Source: Chroogloeocystis siderophila 5.2 s.c.1
Lineage (GTDB): Bacteria; Cyanobacteriota; Cyanobacteriia; Cyanobacteriales; Chroococcidiopsidaceae
NCBI RefSeq assembly: GCF_001904655.1
Contig: NZ_MRCC01000010.1
Span: 124,001-188,000, forward strand
Reading direction: 5' to 3'
Length of the DNA: 64,000 nucleotides
The notes under the pieces are model-generated. The model was not told where the DNA came from, searched no databases, and saw nothing but the letters and a program-made list of their open reading frames with translations. Positions 6,239 to 53,334 of this stretch are shown here, piece after piece. Numbering within the stretch: the first letter of the stretch is position 1; every line of letters starts with the position of its first letter. The translations under genes were made by a program, and so were the position numbers.

Positions 6239-6270
6239 AGGGATTCGCATGAAGTGAGGGTGGCGTTTGT

Positions 6271-7284
6271 TTAAGTGAAAATGGTTGTAGTGACTGCATT
6301 GGATAAGGATTTAGCTGTACCACCACGACGCACTTTGATTAATTCGGCACAAATACTTACTGCGATTTCTTCAGGTGTCAAAGCACCGATATCTAACCCA
6401 ATGGGTGCATAAAGTGATGCTAATACTTTTGGGGGATATCCTTCTTGTTGCAATTGCTGACGTACAAGGTGTACTCGCTTGCGCGAACCAATCATCCCAA
6501 TATACTTTGCTGGTGTTTTTAGTAGAAACCGTAAAGCTTCTAGATCGTGTTGAATTCCCCGCGTCACTAGTGCAACATACTGTGAATTTAATGCACAAGT
6601 TAACGCCAATGTCAAGGGTTGAGCAATCACCGCATTCGCTTGGGGAAACCTTTCACGTGTAGCAAATTCAGCGCGATCGTCAACTACAGTCACCCGAAAC
6701 CCAATCATCGCTGCGATCGCTGCCAAAGGAACCGCAACATGACCCGCCCCCACAATCAACAGCGTTGGTAACGGCATCAAAACCTCTCTAAAAGCTCCTC
6801 CTCTGCGTTCTCTGCGTACGCCAGTTGACACCTCCGCACGGGACTGGCTCCTCTGTGGTTCGTTATCCCCAACCTCCAAATAAGGTTGCAAATCCCCTGA
6901 AAACGGCATCACCAAAGTCTCACACCCACCACTTGACAAAACTTCAATAATTTGCTCTACTAACTTAATCGCCTCATCTCCACTCCAACGTTCCAGCCAA
7001 ACTTGCATTGCCCCACCACAAACCCCCTGAGTTTTGCGCTGCGACGCCCCAGATAAATCGATTTCTACAACTTGTTTCTCACCCGTTACCAAAACTTCTA
7101 AAGCTTGGCGAATGACTTTAGCTTCCCCAGCACCACCGCCAATTGTGCCAATCGTGCGATCGCGACATACGAGCATTTTTGCCCCTACCTCACGCGGAAC
7201 TGAACCAGTGACACTCACAACCGTGGCAAGAACAACTGAATCTTGTCGTAAGGCTTGCGCCATTTGTTGATAAAATTCAAGCAT
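6271..7284 (-). CDS. xdhC: XdhC family molybdenum hydroxylase maturation factor
   Basis: XdhC proteins bind molybdenum cofactor, assist its sulfuration and insert it into xanthine dehydrogenase. The 337-residue protein has the N-terminal XdhC/CoxI domain (VLATVVSVTGSVPREVGAKM, GGAGEAKVI, GVCGGAMQVWLE) and a C-terminal Rossmann domain (TLLIVGAGHVAVPLAAIA; later ALVTRGIQHDLEAL and YIGMIGSRKRV). About 27 residues between the two domains are encoded by an interspersed repeat at 6791-6866 that keeps the frame. It is the last gene of the operon and overlaps the upstream molybdenum subunit by 8 bases, so translation is probably coupled. Confidence 0.9.
   Translation of the reverse strand: MLEFYQQMAQALRQDSVVLATVVSVTGSVPREVGAKMLVCRDRTIGTIGGGAGEAKVIRQALEVLVTGEKQVVEIDLSGASQRKTQGVCGGAMQVWLERWSGDEAIKLVEQIIEVLSSGGCETLVMPFSGDLQPYLEVGDNEPQRSQSRAEVSTGVRRERRGGAFREVLMPLPTLLIVGAGHVAVPLAAIAAMIGFRVTVVDDRAEFATRERFPQANAVIAQPLTLALTCALNSQYVALVTRGIQHDLEALRFLLKTPAKYIGMIGSRKRVHLVRQQLQQEGYPPKVLASLYAPIGLDIGALTPEEIAVSICAELIKVRRGGTAKSLSNAVTTTIFT
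6791..6866 (-). repeat. interspersed repeat inserted in frame within xdhC (copy 2, with nested palindrome)
   Basis: On the minus strand the ends read aacgaaccacagagg and agagaacgcagagg, matching copies at 6196 and 48296. Between them sits a second element with inverted ends GCCAGT (6820-6825) and ACTGGC (6843-6848). Together they encode an Arg/Glu/Ser-rich linker (from EPQRSQSRAEV to RRERRGGAF) in xdhC that has no counterpart in the usual two-domain layout. Confidence 0.7.
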
Positions 7285-10012
7285 TCAAGGCTTTCCACAC
7301 TCGTTCAGGCGTCATGGGAATCTGAGTTAGTCGCACACCTGTTGCATGAGCAACGGCATTGGCGATCGCAGCTGCGGTACAATTAGTGCCAATTTCTCCG
7401 ATACCTTTTGCACCAAACGGACCATAAGGATCGGGCTGTTCAACTAAAAAGATTTCCATTTGCGGTGTATCTTTGGCAGTAGGTAGGCGATATGTTCGGA
7501 GTGCTGGATTTAGAATTTTTCCTGAATCATTAATGAGTAATTCCTCAGACAATGCATAACCTAAACCCATGACAATTCCGCCTGTCGCTTGTCCGTGACA
7601 GATTCTTGGATTAATTGCAGTACCAACATCAATGGCTTGTATGCAACGCAGAACGTTGATTCTACCTGTTTCGGTATCAACTTCGACTTCCGCCCCTTGC
7701 ACTGCAAATGTCAAAGATGATTCACTCGCGGCGTGTTCGACTTCGACAACAAAAGGTTGTTGATTGCGAGTGACAAGTTCTTGTAGTGTTATTTCTTGTT
7801 GTGGGGCAAGTGCTTTGTCTGCAGTGAGTGTGATATTTTCAGGTTGAGTTTCGAGAACTTTAGCTGCAAATTCCAAGATCTGCGATCGCATTGCAACTGC
7901 GGCTTTATTCACAGCTTTACCTGATATATAAGTTGTTGCTGACGCATACGAACCCGCATCGAAGGGCGTATGATGCGTGTCACCTGCAATCATTTCAATA
8001 TCTGCAACTGTGACACCCAGAACCTGCGCCGCAATTTGTCGTAATGATGTATCCGCACCCGTACCAACGTCAACCGCCCCAGTTCTTAATTCATATTTCC
8101 CATCGTTTTTTAAGGATAACTTCACTCCTGCGCTATGAATTTTTGCCAAGCCACTTCCTTGCATTGATACGGCAAATCCCACACCACGCCGCAGATGTCC
8201 ATTAATATTAGGCTGCATTCCAGGAACGTAATTTAAGGCTTGCGTGACTTTACTAAAACATTCGGGTACGCCATAGCTACCAATCAAGTGAAAATGGTCG
8301 TGCGCTTCTTCGCGTCCGAGGCGAATGATATCGTGAGGTTGAATAATATTTTTCTGACGCAATTCTACTGGATCAATTCCCAGTTTCTCGGCAATTTCGT
8401 CCATTTGCAACTCAACCGCAAAGGTTCCCTGCGTTGCACCGTAGCCGCGAAACGCCCCAGCAGGCATTGTATTCGTGTAAACTGATAACCCAAGAAATCG
8501 CTGATGCGGACACCGATATAAACCTAGTGGGTAGCAACCTGTCAAGAAAACAACCGTAGGCGCGTGATTGCCATACGCCCCTGTATTAGCGATCGCTTCC
8601 ATCTCTTGCGCGACTAGCGTACCATCAGCTTTGACTCCGGTTTTTACTCTAACCTGCATTGCATGACGGCTATTAGTGGCTGTAAATTCCTCTTCGCGTG
8701 TAAATTCCCATTGCACAGGCTTTCCGGTGTGCAACGTTGCTAAAACGCATAAATCTTCAGTGAGAATTTCTTGTTTATTACCAAATCCTCCACCAATTTG
8801 AGTTTTAAAAACGCGAACTTTGTCTTTTGGTAAATCAAATAGCTGCGCAAGAACTCTTTGCGTGTGAAATGGAACTTGCGTACTTGATCGCACTACTAAT
8901 GTTCCGTCTTCTTCTAACCAACTTGTGCTGATGTGCGGTTCTAAATGAACGTGTTGGACAGCTGGTAAGTAGTAAGTATTTTCAACAATTAAATCAGCTT
9001 CAGCAAAGCCTTCTGCAATATCATGCTTTCCCAGTGTGACTTTAGCTGCGATGTTGCGTTGAGGATCGTAAATTTGTGATGACTCAGGTTCATCATGAAT
9101 CACAATCTTGCAATTCATTGCTTTGACAGGATCGATTATATGAGGAAGAATTTCGTAATCGACTTCAATGAGGTGACACGCTTGAGTTGCGATCGCCACC
9201 GATTCTGCAACAACCACTGCAACGCGATCGCCAACAAACCGAACTTTATTATCTAATAAATAGTGATCGAGAGGATCGGGTACTGGATCGGCGTGTCCTG
9301 CTGTTGTATAAGGTTTACGGGGAACGTCTTCATAGGTAAAAACTGCATGAACGCCAGAAAGGGCTTTGGCTTTTTCGGTGTCAATTTTACGAATACGCGC
9401 GTGGGGATAGGGCGATCGCACTGCTTTAATATGTAGTAACCCAGGTGGCGACCAATCTGCTGTATAATTTGCTGTACCTTTAACAATTGCTGGTCCATCT
9501 TGTTTAGGAACACTTTGCCCTACTGAAGGGGTGAGGGGTGGAGTTGTTTCTTGTGATTTCTCCTGATTTTTTGTCTCAGCGTGCAATAAAATACTTTCAA
9601 CAATTGCTTCGTATCCGGTACAGCGACACAAATTACCATCTAAAGCTTTACGTAGTTCAGCTAGGGAATTAAATTGCAACTTCGCCGCACTCATAATCAT
9701 TCCTGGAGTGCAAAATCCACATTGAAAACCTTGTTTTTCGAGAAAAGCTTGCTGGATTGGTGCTAATTCATCTACTGCTAGTCCTTCAATAGTTGTGACG
9801 TCATGTCCCTCTAGCTTCATGACTGGATAGATACAGCTATGAACAGGTTTGTCATCAACCCATACCGTGCAACTTCCACAATCACCCGATTCACAAACGC
9901 GATGTACCCCTACCCAACCAAGATCGCGCAATAAAGTTAATAAGCTTGTCCCTGGAGGACAACTTTCAGTGTATGTTTTGCCATTAACTTGAAAAGTTAG
10001 TGGTTCTTGCAT
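7277..10012 (-). CDS. xanthine dehydrogenase-type hydroxylase, fused 2Fe-2S and molybdopterin subunits
   Basis: A 911-residue fusion. Residues 1-150 are the iron-sulfur subunit: plant-type [2Fe-2S] ligands CESGDCGSC plus a later Cys, then the second cluster CGFCTPG and CRCTGY. A linker (about 150-170, KNQEKSQETTPP) leads to the molybdopterin subunit with IGGGFGNKQE, AFRGYGATQG, GAVDVGTGADTS and the C-terminal GPFGAKGIGEIG carrying the catalytic Glu. Usually these subunits are separate genes. The active-site strings differ from classical xanthine dehydrogenases (GGGFGGKE, AFRGFGG), so the exact purine or N-heterocycle substrate is uncertain; the adjacent uraD argues for purine breakdown. It lies 4 bases after the FAD gene and overlaps xdhC by 8. 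Confidence 0.92.
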   Translation of the reverse strand: MQEPLTFQVNGKTYTESCPPGTSLLTLLRDLGWVGVHRVCESGDCGSCTVWVDDKPVHSCIYPVMKLEGHDVTTIEGLAVDELAPIQQAFLEKQGFQCGFCTPGMIMSAAKLQFNSLAELRKALDGNLCRCTGYEAIVESILLHAETKNQEKSQETTPPLTPSVGQSVPKQDGPAIVKGTANYTADWSPPGLLHIKAVRSPYPHARIRKIDTEKAKALSGVHAVFTYEDVPRKPYTTAGHADPVPDPLDHYLLDNKVRFVGDRVAVVVAESVAIATQACHLIEVDYEILPHIIDPVKAMNCKIVIHDEPESSQIYDPQRNIAAKVTLGKHDIAEGFAEADLIVENTYYLPAVQHVHLEPHISTSWLEEDGTLVVRSSTQVPFHTQRVLAQLFDLPKDKVRVFKTQIGGGFGNKQEILTEDLCVLATLHTGKPVQWEFTREEEFTATNSRHAMQVRVKTGVKADGTLVAQEMEAIANTGAYGNHAPTVVFLTGCYPLGLYRCPHQRFLGLSVYTNTMPAGAFRGYGATQGTFAVELQMDEIAEKLGIDPVELRQKNIIQPHDIIRLGREEAHDHFHLIGSYGVPECFSKVTQALNYVPGMQPNINGHLRRGVGFAVSMQGSGLAKIHSAGVKLSLKNDGKYELRTGAVDVGTGADTSLRQIAAQVLGVTVADIEMIAGDTHHTPFDAGSYASATTYISGKAVNKAAVAMRSQILEFAAKVLETQPENITLTADKALAPQQEITLQELVTRNQQPFVVEVEHAASESSLTFAVQGAEVEVDTETGRINVLRCIQAIDVGTAINPRICHGQATGGIVMGLGYALSEELLINDSGKILNPALRTYRLPTAKDTPQMEIFLVEQPDPYGPFGAKGIGEIGTNCTAAAIANAVAHATGVRLTQIPMTPERVWKALNA

Positions 10013-51568: not shown

Positions 51569-52444
51569 TCACCCCAAGCGACTGGGTATTAATGATGAAT
51601 TCTGCCAGAGTTGGATTTGATAACACAGATGGCTATCAAAAATGGCGCGTGCTGCTAACCCTTCGACAATCGGCTTTTCTAGCCAACGATTAAATGCCCA
51701 ACGCCCAAGTGTGTATAACGGCGGAAGTGCGATCGCCACGACATCAGCAATGTATTTAACAGTAGTCAGCCCAAAAGTACGGAAGTTATCAACACATAAA
51801 TCAATTGTTGGCGCAACTTGAGTTGAGATGTCCTCAGACTTGATTAACTTAAATCCAGCTTGGATCAAAGCCGTGTGAAGTTTGCTAGCTACATGACAAT
51901 TAGAAAAAATGCCCTCTCGATATTCCGCATCAGAACGCATCATATCTGCAAGCAACAGGTAGCCACCACTACTTAGTAAACGAGCCGCACCTTGAGCTAA
52001 ATCTTCAACAGCAATATATTGGCTACTTTCACTGAACAAAAGGAGATCGTAGAAGTGTGATGTGTGAAAATCTTCAAATCTTGTTAAATAGAAAAGTACT
52101 TGATTGTTAGTATTTTTGATAAACCTTTCTTGTTGAAGTGTATCAGGGGCTAACCCCTCGACAATAAAACCGCGATCGCACAAATACGCTGCATTACCAC
52201 CGATACCACAACCTACGTCAAGCACAGTTTTTATACCTTCTGGGATAAAACTCATTAACTTCGCTGCATAGGCTTCCTGGGCTGCACGTAAGCGAGTTAG
52301 AGTCAATTCCTCTCCTTTTTCCGGTAGTGGTTCCCAATACCCGTAATGAAGATAGGAGGAATTTGTGAGTCCTATATAATAATCTATCGCTGCATTTTGG
52401 TAGCGAGTTGGTTTGGGAATATTAGTTGCTTTTGGCTTGATCAT
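51569..52444 (-). CDS. class I SAM-dependent methyltransferase
   Basis: A 291-residue methyltransferase with motif I VLDVGCGIGGNAAYLCDRG near residue 72, post-motif ADMMRSDAEYREGIF and an N-terminal substrate-side region (AIDYYIGLTNSSYLHYGYW) resembling tocopherol, sarcosine and related small-molecule methyltransferases. The substrate is unknown. It is the last of three tightly spaced genes (18 and 20 base gaps) behind a cobalamin riboswitch, which suggests action on a corrinoid or metallophore pathway, or compensation for B12 limitation. Confidence 0.85.
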   Translation of the reverse strand: MIKPKATNIPKPTRYQNAAIDYYIGLTNSSYLHYGYWEPLPEKGEELTLTRLRAAQEAYAAKLMSFIPEGIKTVLDVGCGIGGNAAYLCDRGFIVEGLAPDTLQQERFIKNTNNQVLFYLTRFEDFHTSHFYDLLLFSESSQYIAVEDLAQGAARLLSSGGYLLLADMMRSDAEYREGIFSNCHVASKLHTALIQAGFKLIKSEDISTQVAPTIDLCVDNFRTFGLTTVKYIADVVAIALPPLYTLGRWAFNRWLEKPIVEGLAARAIFDSHLCYQIQLWQNSSLIPSRLG

Positions 52445-52462
52445 TAAGGCACACAGTAAATG

Positions 52463-52915
52463 TTAGGTGATTAGGCTTGGTTGAAATTCTTCCCATCGTT
52501 TGCACACTTGTTCGTAACAATTGAGTGGAGTAATCTTTAGCTGATGTAAGAGATTGACTTCAATTTGAGGATAAGCTTTTAGCATTAAAACAATGTCTTG
52601 ATGGGGATTGTATGTTGCAACTGCGGGGAGAATAGAGGAAATTATTGATGAGCTAGTAGATTGCGATCGCAAGTAACACTCAATCAGATTAGAAGGCATA
52701 AATTGAAGTGTGAAGGAAATTGTATCGAGATTTGTCATTGTAGAGTAAGTAACAGAGGTGTCCACATCACAAATGACAACTCCCCGCCCAAATGACTCAA
52801 ATCCCCGCCATGCTGCGTAGCCTATTACCAGCAAATTATTATGAATAAAGTTATTTTGCCAGTAGCCAAAATTTCCTTGCCAGATACTATCAGATAATCG
52901 CACCTGCTTCCTCAC
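52463..52915 (-). CDS. unknown protein in the riboswitch operon (GTG start)
   Basis: A 150-residue protein that I do not recognise. It has an aromatic N-terminal part (SIWQGNFGYWQNNFIHNNLL, YAAWRGFESFGRGVVICDVD), a middle strand-rich part and a helical C-terminus (CYEQVCKRWEEFQPSLIT). No signal peptide or membrane span. GTG at 52915 is the only sensible start because the nearby ATG is out of frame and stops after four codons. Gaps of 20 and 18 bases to its neighbours put it in the operon of the DUF1636 protein and the methyltransferase. Confidence 0.72.
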   Translation of the reverse strand: MRKQVRLSDSIWQGNFGYWQNNFIHNNLLVIGYAAWRGFESFGRGVVICDVDTSVTYSTMTNLDTISFTLQFMPSNLIECYLRSQSTSSSIISSILPAVATYNPHQDIVLMLKAYPQIEVNLLHQLKITPLNCYEQVCKRWEEFQPSLIT

Positions 52916-52935
52916 TTTGGAGTCATCGTTGTTTG

Positions 52936-53334
52936 TTAATTCCTATTAGAACTAGCAGCAATATTTATGGGTGGAATCTTTGCTAAAATACTTTTTTTTA
53001 GGGGGTCTGGTCGTTCCGACCAAGGCAAAGAACCGTCAGATTTAGTGTAATATTGAGTTGCACATTCGAGGATCGCTGGCGCACTTTCCTCTTTTGGTAA
53101 ATCTCCAAAAAGATACGTTAACTTTGCTTCGGCGGCAAAGGCAATAACACAAGCACGATTGCAAGCACTCATACATTTTACGGCTTGAATGGAAAATTGA
53201 TGCTGCAATTCCCAAGTTTGTGCTAATTCCTGAAGTTGTTGTAACAGTTGTTGTCCACCACTCTCACCAACACGATTGCCATCTTGCCACACGCTGGCAC
53301 AGGTCGTGCAGATAAATAAAGTATGTTTGTTCAT
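52936..53334 (-). CDS. DUF1636 family Cys-rich metal-binding protein
   Basis: A 132-residue protein of the DUF1636 family, thought to adopt a thioredoxin-like [2Fe-2S] fold. Ligand candidates are CTTCASVW at the N-terminus and KCMSACNRACVIAF in the middle, followed by AAEAKLTYLFGDLP. In many bacteria DUF1636 genes lie in cobalamin-related clusters and under B12 riboswitches, which agrees with the riboswitch upstream here. First gene of a three-gene unit. The biochemical role is not established. Confidence 0.88.
   Translation of the reverse strand: MNKHTLFICTTCASVWQDGNRVGESGGQQLLQQLQELAQTWELQHQFSIQAVKCMSACNRACVIAFAAEAKLTYLFGDLPKEESAPAILECATQYYTKSDGSLPWSERPDPLKKSILAKIPPINIAASSNRN

Follow-up and report, generated by a model that had tools for sequence, protein, structure and literature searches.

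A cobalamin riboswitch-led operon of Chroogloeocystis siderophila encodes P150, a conserved cyanobacterial protein with a predicted CcmS fold

The stretch of DNA that was analysed in this work (64,000 nucleotides, hereafter the window) contains a cobalamin riboswitch that is followed by three genes on the minus strand. These genes encode, in order, a DUF1636 protein, a small protein that we call P150, and a methyltransferase (MT). P150 belongs to a conserved family that is linked to cobalamin riboswitches and that is homologous to CcmS. We tentatively favour the explanation that the operon is a unit of the low-B12 response where P150 is a CcmS-fold adaptor that is off carboxysome duty and serves the enzymes made together with it. 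When cobalamin is scarce, the riboswitch would permit the production of DUF1636, P150, and MT. P150 would act as a small accessory or adaptor for enzymes produced under low B12, with MT as the most likely one in the window, and DUF1636 would supply a small redox or metal-binding partner. The adaptor role may have its precedent in CcmS, which itself binds a protein tail.

Operon layout and cobalamin riboswitch

The coordinates of the operon and its downstream genes are shown in Table 1. The aptamer is the sole Rfam element detected in the window, and no terminator-like site was found in the leader that separates it from the first gene. The initial annotation had claimed a riboswitch-led unit of three genes without any known B12-synthesis gene among them, and both claims are borne out. 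The reported spacing of 20 and 18 bases holds for the annotated open reading frames. However, an internal GTG at 52903 that is preceded by AGGAAG is the more likely start of P150 (146 aa) because the aligned relatives begin at the corresponding position, and the first gap would therefore be about 32 bases. The presence of the riboswitch suggests that B12 represses the operon.

The three genes are followed, after a gap of 160 bases 3' of MT, by five further co-directional genes that the initial annotation had missed when it set the extent of the operon. These genes encode a TonB receptor, a DUF7676-ferredoxin protein, and ABC uptake components. The Fur-box-like palindrome within this gap had likewise escaped the initial annotation. 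A strong terminator was sought after MT, and just a weak hairpin at 51586-51573 was found, which is no more than expected by chance.

Table 1. Positions of the operon and the neighbouring features in the window.
Feature	Start	End	Strand	Basis
Cobalamin riboswitch aptamer RF00174	53661	53887	-	Rfam 43.9 bits, gathering cut-off 31.5; full model length
Leader, aptamer to first gene	53335	53660	-	Sequence
DUF1636	52936	53334	-	132 aa, ATG start; PF07845 156.6 bits, cut-off 31.6
P150, type A, CcmS-fold (predicted)	52463	52903	-	Annotated open reading frame 52463-52915, 150 aa, GTG
MT, class I SAM methyltransferase	51569	52444	-	291 aa, ATG start
Fur-box-like palindrome	51500	51518	.	Gap between MT and TonB receptor genes; 17/19 to E. 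coli consensus
TonB-dependent receptor	49277	51409	-	Domain profile matches; part of the neighbouring block, which may be transcribed separately
DUF7676 fused to thioredoxin-like 2Fe-2S domain	48356	49237	-	PF24724 220 bits
Periplasmic binding protein, BtuF/FhuD superfamily	46950	48359	-	PF01497
Putative BtuC/FecD-type permease	45865	46950	-	Open reading frame resemblance and synteny with L050, L051, and L128
Putative BtuD/FecE-type ATPase	44837	45868	-	Open reading frame resemblance and synteny with L050, L051, and L128

Distribution and conservation of the P150 family

The initial annotation had placed the middle protein in no recognised family. This is confirmed by the Pfam and NCBIfam searches with P150, where no family was matched, and by the Pfam search with 40 members of the P150 family, where only chance-level matches were returned. 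P150 is present in 26 of the 292 cyanobacterial genomes (36 matches in the sampled genomes). When bacterial and archaeal genomes were scanned with a sensitivity that covers close relatives only, 36 P150 loci were identified, all of them cyanobacterial, and one scan of viral contigs identified no P150 relative. The P150 of Gloeocapsopsis crepidinum, which is close to the cyanobacterium of the window, is 92% identical. The members are mostly split into type A, which includes the P150 of the window, and type B (grouping support 82/81). Several operons encode one P150 of each type.

A total of 27 of the 36 matches are located at most 6 kb downstream of RF00174 on the same strand (0.06 expected), and the remaining matches are mostly at contig ends, fragments, or very divergent. 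The P150 alignment retains conserved columns over deep divergence. The search for relatives and their neighbours that had been proposed for the middle protein thus identified a genuine conserved cyanobacterial family that is linked to the riboswitch and is not lineage-specific noise.

P150 might also be a passenger that is retained by the structure of the operon and has no B12-specific role, which we consider improbable. Some lineages do keep MT or DUF1636 while P150 is absent or decayed. The DUF1636-MT pair is found behind a riboswitch without P150 in L140-L142, and P150 is decayed beside an intact MT in G039, G203:C158, and G167. P150 is therefore dispensable in places, which counts against the adaptor explanation as well. 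The passenger role, however, does not account well for the conserved columns, for the recurrence of P150 with varied partners nearly always behind a cobalamin riboswitch, or for the remnants of metE and P150 that occur together in G099.

Comparison of P150 with CcmS

CcmS is a chaperone of beta-carboxysome assembly that attaches, as a dimer, to the C-terminal tail of CcmK1, a protein of the shell (PMC11635287). The structure prediction that had been suggested for the middle protein was performed using AlphaFold2 on 40 relatives (pLDDT 81), and the predicted fold is that of CcmS (Foldseek E 2.6e-6; VIA Z 9.2/9.1; next unrelated row 4.3). The only clear matches to the model among PDB structures are two CcmS entries (9IUR and 8ZLH). 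Residues 9-143 of P150 superpose on CcmS (Slr1911) with a Z of 9.2 and 3.9 A over 117 aligned residues. The P150 profile also aligns collinearly and end to end with an alignment of CcmS orthologues from other genomes (hhalign probability 94.8, E 5.5e-8). In the PDB search with the single P150 profile, CcmS was matched only at an E of 0.65.

Both proteins are about 140 aa long and are confined to cyanobacteria. However, they share only 15% identity, P150 forms a separate clade on a long branch, and the P150 genes adjoin cobalamin-riboswitch genes and not ccm genes. Seven residues of CcmS contact CcmK1. P150 keeps Phe58, many type A members also keep Asp51, and the other five columns are changed. 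The residues of the CcmS dimer interface (Arg16, Asp20, Lys104, and Glu111) are replaced in P150 by Gln, Asn/Gln, Glu/Asp, and Pro/Ala/Lys, and most of the dimer salt bridges are not kept. The genome of the window encodes a separate CcmS besides P150, and no CcmS match was detected in the P150-bearing genomes G011, G033, G045, G085, and G089. P150 probably uses the CcmS fold on partners other than CcmK1, because the contact and dimer residues are changed, a separate CcmS is kept, and P150 is found elsewhere without CcmS. The P150 family looks like a branch of the CcmS fold that has been repurposed for the low-B12 response. The loss of most contact residues also counts against the adaptor explanation.

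The shared fold, the homology, and the presence of CcmS in the same genome would also be expected if P150 competes with CcmS for the CcmK1 tail and thereby links B12 status to carboxysomes. This is very improbable given the reduction of the CcmK1 contacts to Phe58 and a partly conserved Asp51, the genomes with P150 where no CcmS was matched, and the B12 genes that surround P150 in place of ccm genes.

Gene neighbourhoods of P150

The recurrent neighbours of P150 are MT, CbiO, metE, desaturase, cobW, DUF1636, DUF7676, and a Rieske protein. The B12-independent methionine synthase MetE is rare (19 of the 292 genomes), and 14 of these 19 genomes also have P150 (co-occurrence p = 3e-13). The start of the P150 gene overlaps the last 14-17 bases of metE in L071, L074, and L082, of cobW in L039 and L050 (Nostoc), and of a second methyltransferase gene in L073. 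The spacing between P150 and MT is constant at 18-19 bases in Gloeocapsopsis, Nostoc, and Microcoleus. These overlaps and the constant spacing suggest that P150 is coupled in translation to its metE, cobW, and MT neighbours. The initial annotation had read the anatomy and the novelty of the operon correctly, but the coupling of P150 relatives to metE, cobW, and cobalt-transport genes and the likeness of P150 to CcmS had been missed.

The plasmid operon of Picosynechococcus PCC 73109 (L146 3198-10800) is led by a cobalamin riboswitch, and its P150 gene overlaps the metE stop. The order is metE, P150 of type A, fatty-acid desaturase, MPBQ-like methyltransferase, UbiH-like FAD hydroxylase, and P150 of type B. 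The three enzymes encoded after metE point to a branch of the low-B12 response that would concern lipids or quinones and is so far undescribed. The operon of the window differs from this riboswitch-controlled metE system as it has no metE. In Halotia, the P150 paralogues likewise bracket enzyme genes (cobW-A-...-MT-B).

Several other arrangements were observed. P150 of types A and B bracket a putative small ribonucleotide reductase pair, as read from the sequence, in L082 (8608-11823) and L078, and this pair follows metE and a cobalamin riboswitch. In L147 (9807-10760), the genes of P150 type A and MT are separated by those of a Rieske protein and of a Cys-rich protein that looks exported, and the same arrangement is seen again in L045, L048, and L083. 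In G099 (L130, about 6250-8132), a metE fragment, a decayed P150, and an intact desaturase are arranged in a row, as if the genes of a low-B12 operon had been decaying together. In Nostoc, an MPBQ/MSBQ-methyltransferase-like gene is found downstream of a cobalamin riboswitch (L129 5588-7390; L050 3734-5465).

P150 is probably an accessory or adaptor of the enzymes encoded next to it. A broader form of the adaptor explanation, which is possible but which we hold with less confidence than the one for the operon of the window, is that P150 constitutes an unnamed CcmS-fold adaptor family that is switched by cobalamin riboswitches, often with A and B paralogues in one operon. The proposed clients would then be MetE, methyltransferases, CobW, desaturase, ribonucleotide reductase, and cobalt import. 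The metE gene of PCC 73109 is reported to relieve B12 auxotrophy when it is expressed in PCC 7002 (PMC8066212), and MetE may therefore not require P150. A tail of MetE or MT as the binding site of P150 was considered and rejected, as the C-termini of MetE and of MT with and without a P150 neighbour show no distinguishing tail. Both observations weigh against the adaptor explanation.

Cobalt supply and the genome setting

The main rival explanation is that P150 and DUF1636 handle Co(II), as chaperone or reductant, between import and cobaltochelatase, with MT as an auxiliary. We consider this unlikely, although it is the best placed of the rivals. It is in line with the riboswitch-led order P150-MT-CbiO that is kept in at least 12 Microcoleaceae loci, where CbiMNQ has its own riboswitch nearby (L131) or is directly upstream (L066), and with the Nostoc cobW genes that are overlapped by P150. 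The CbiO of the riboswitch-controlled CbiMNQO cobalt importer thus shares an operon with P150 and MT in Microcoleaceae, whereas the operon of the window has no Cbi transporter gene next to it. The other two cobalamin riboswitches of the genome precede HupE, of a cobalt transporter family, and a putative CbiX that was named from its sequence. CbiD is present in the genome, and MetE was searched for there and was not detected. On the other side, P150 is tied equally to metE, desaturase, and ribonucleotide reductase genes, none of which handles cobalt. The conserved Cys and aromatic residues of P150 are partly common to CcmS, so no obvious metal site has been added in P150.

The presence of CbiD together with the undetected MetE indicates that the cell probably makes its own corrinoid and needs B12 for methionine. 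It is therefore more likely that the operon copes with or relieves B12 or cobalt shortage than that it replaces MetH.

The methyltransferase MT

MT matches Methyltransf_11 (27.9 bits, cut-off 21.2) and Rossmann folds. Its model is nearest to GPP/FPP C6-methyltransferases (Z 25-26) within a broad fold group. The overall fold, which is the only aspect compared, is like that of the geranyl/farnesyl pyrophosphate C-methyltransferases BezA and GPPMT, but the identity is 16-18% and the family acts on many substrates. MT is below the cut-offs for the corrinoid protein-associated methyltransferase CpaM (NF043040; 27.6 against 180 bits) and for the DVU_1556 family methyltransferase (NF045667; 43.3 against 155 bits). 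No precorrin-methyltransferase domain was found in MT at E up to 1, and methylation of the corrin ring by MT was rejected on this basis. Close relatives of MT are found without a riboswitch nearby in nine genomes (L132-L139 and L143). The proposal of the initial annotation that MT modifies a corrinoid or a lower ligand is not supported, given the prenyl/lipid C-methyltransferase-like fold, the missing precorrin-methyltransferase domain, and these relatives. An attempt to read the substrate from the neighbours of solitary MT genes was abandoned, since the flanks looked unrelated between loci (judged by eye and only partly tested with profiles).

MT could alternatively be a B12-independent substitute for a cobalamin-dependent (radical SAM) lipid or isoprenoid methylase, so that the operon would be an isozyme switch like those that riboswitches usually control, with P150 as a helper of MT. 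The resemblance of MT to GPP/FPP C6-methyltransferases would fit such a switch, as would the MPBQ-like methyltransferase, fatty-acid desaturase, and UbiH-like FAD hydroxylase in other P150 operons. It is nonetheless rather improbable, and more so than cobalt handling is. The nine genomes keep close MT relatives away from riboswitches, no matching B12-dependent methylase was identified in the genome of the window, and the fold group is broad.

DUF1636

The six Cys of DUF1636 (9, 12, 54, 58, 62, and 91) are invariant among 11 relatives. DUF1636 is below the cut-off for PF01257, the thioredoxin-like [2Fe-2S] ferredoxin family (18.7 against 24.8 bits), and a relationship to this ferredoxin has been proposed earlier (PMC4520260). 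Comparison of positions indicates that DUF1636 is riboswitch-led in many genomes. A search of the available literature returned nothing on DUF1636 and cobalamin, COG5469 and cobalt, or Slr1911 by locus name.

Downstream uptake block and Fur-type box

The Fur-type site at the head of the uptake block is unique in the window, where 0.02 such sites are expected. The TonB receptor scores 151.4 bits against the BtuB model TIGR01779, below its cut-off of 599.7, and the siderophore and heme receptor models score this gene much like the BtuB model. In a close relative (L034), the three-gene unit is followed almost directly by a formamidase-like gene that lies beyond the uptake block in the window. The uptake block is missing from L034, where synteny holds otherwise, and is therefore a separable insertion. 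In the window, it may be under separate control, with iron or zinc as possible signals. In Anabaena, the gene of a related binding protein (alr4031) appears in a list of genes under Zur control (PMC6103462).

The Nostoc relatives have a homologous block with its own cobalamin riboswitch (L045 and L050) or after a riboswitch and DUF1636 (L128 and L147), and the uptake block therefore shares the B12 theme. The order of TonB receptor, DUF7676-2Fe-2S protein, and ABC importer recurs in Nostoc behind cobalamin riboswitches.

Implications

If the favoured explanation is true, the hypothetical protein beside metE would receive its first family assignment, including that in Picosynechococcus strains in which B12 independence is studied. 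The CcmS fold would not be confined to carboxysomes. In the broader form of the explanation, vitamin metabolism would have taken over the fold of a carboxysome chaperone for helpers that are specific to their clients. It would then become testable which proteins the CcmS fold recognises, and what cyanobacteria change at low B12 besides methionine synthesis.
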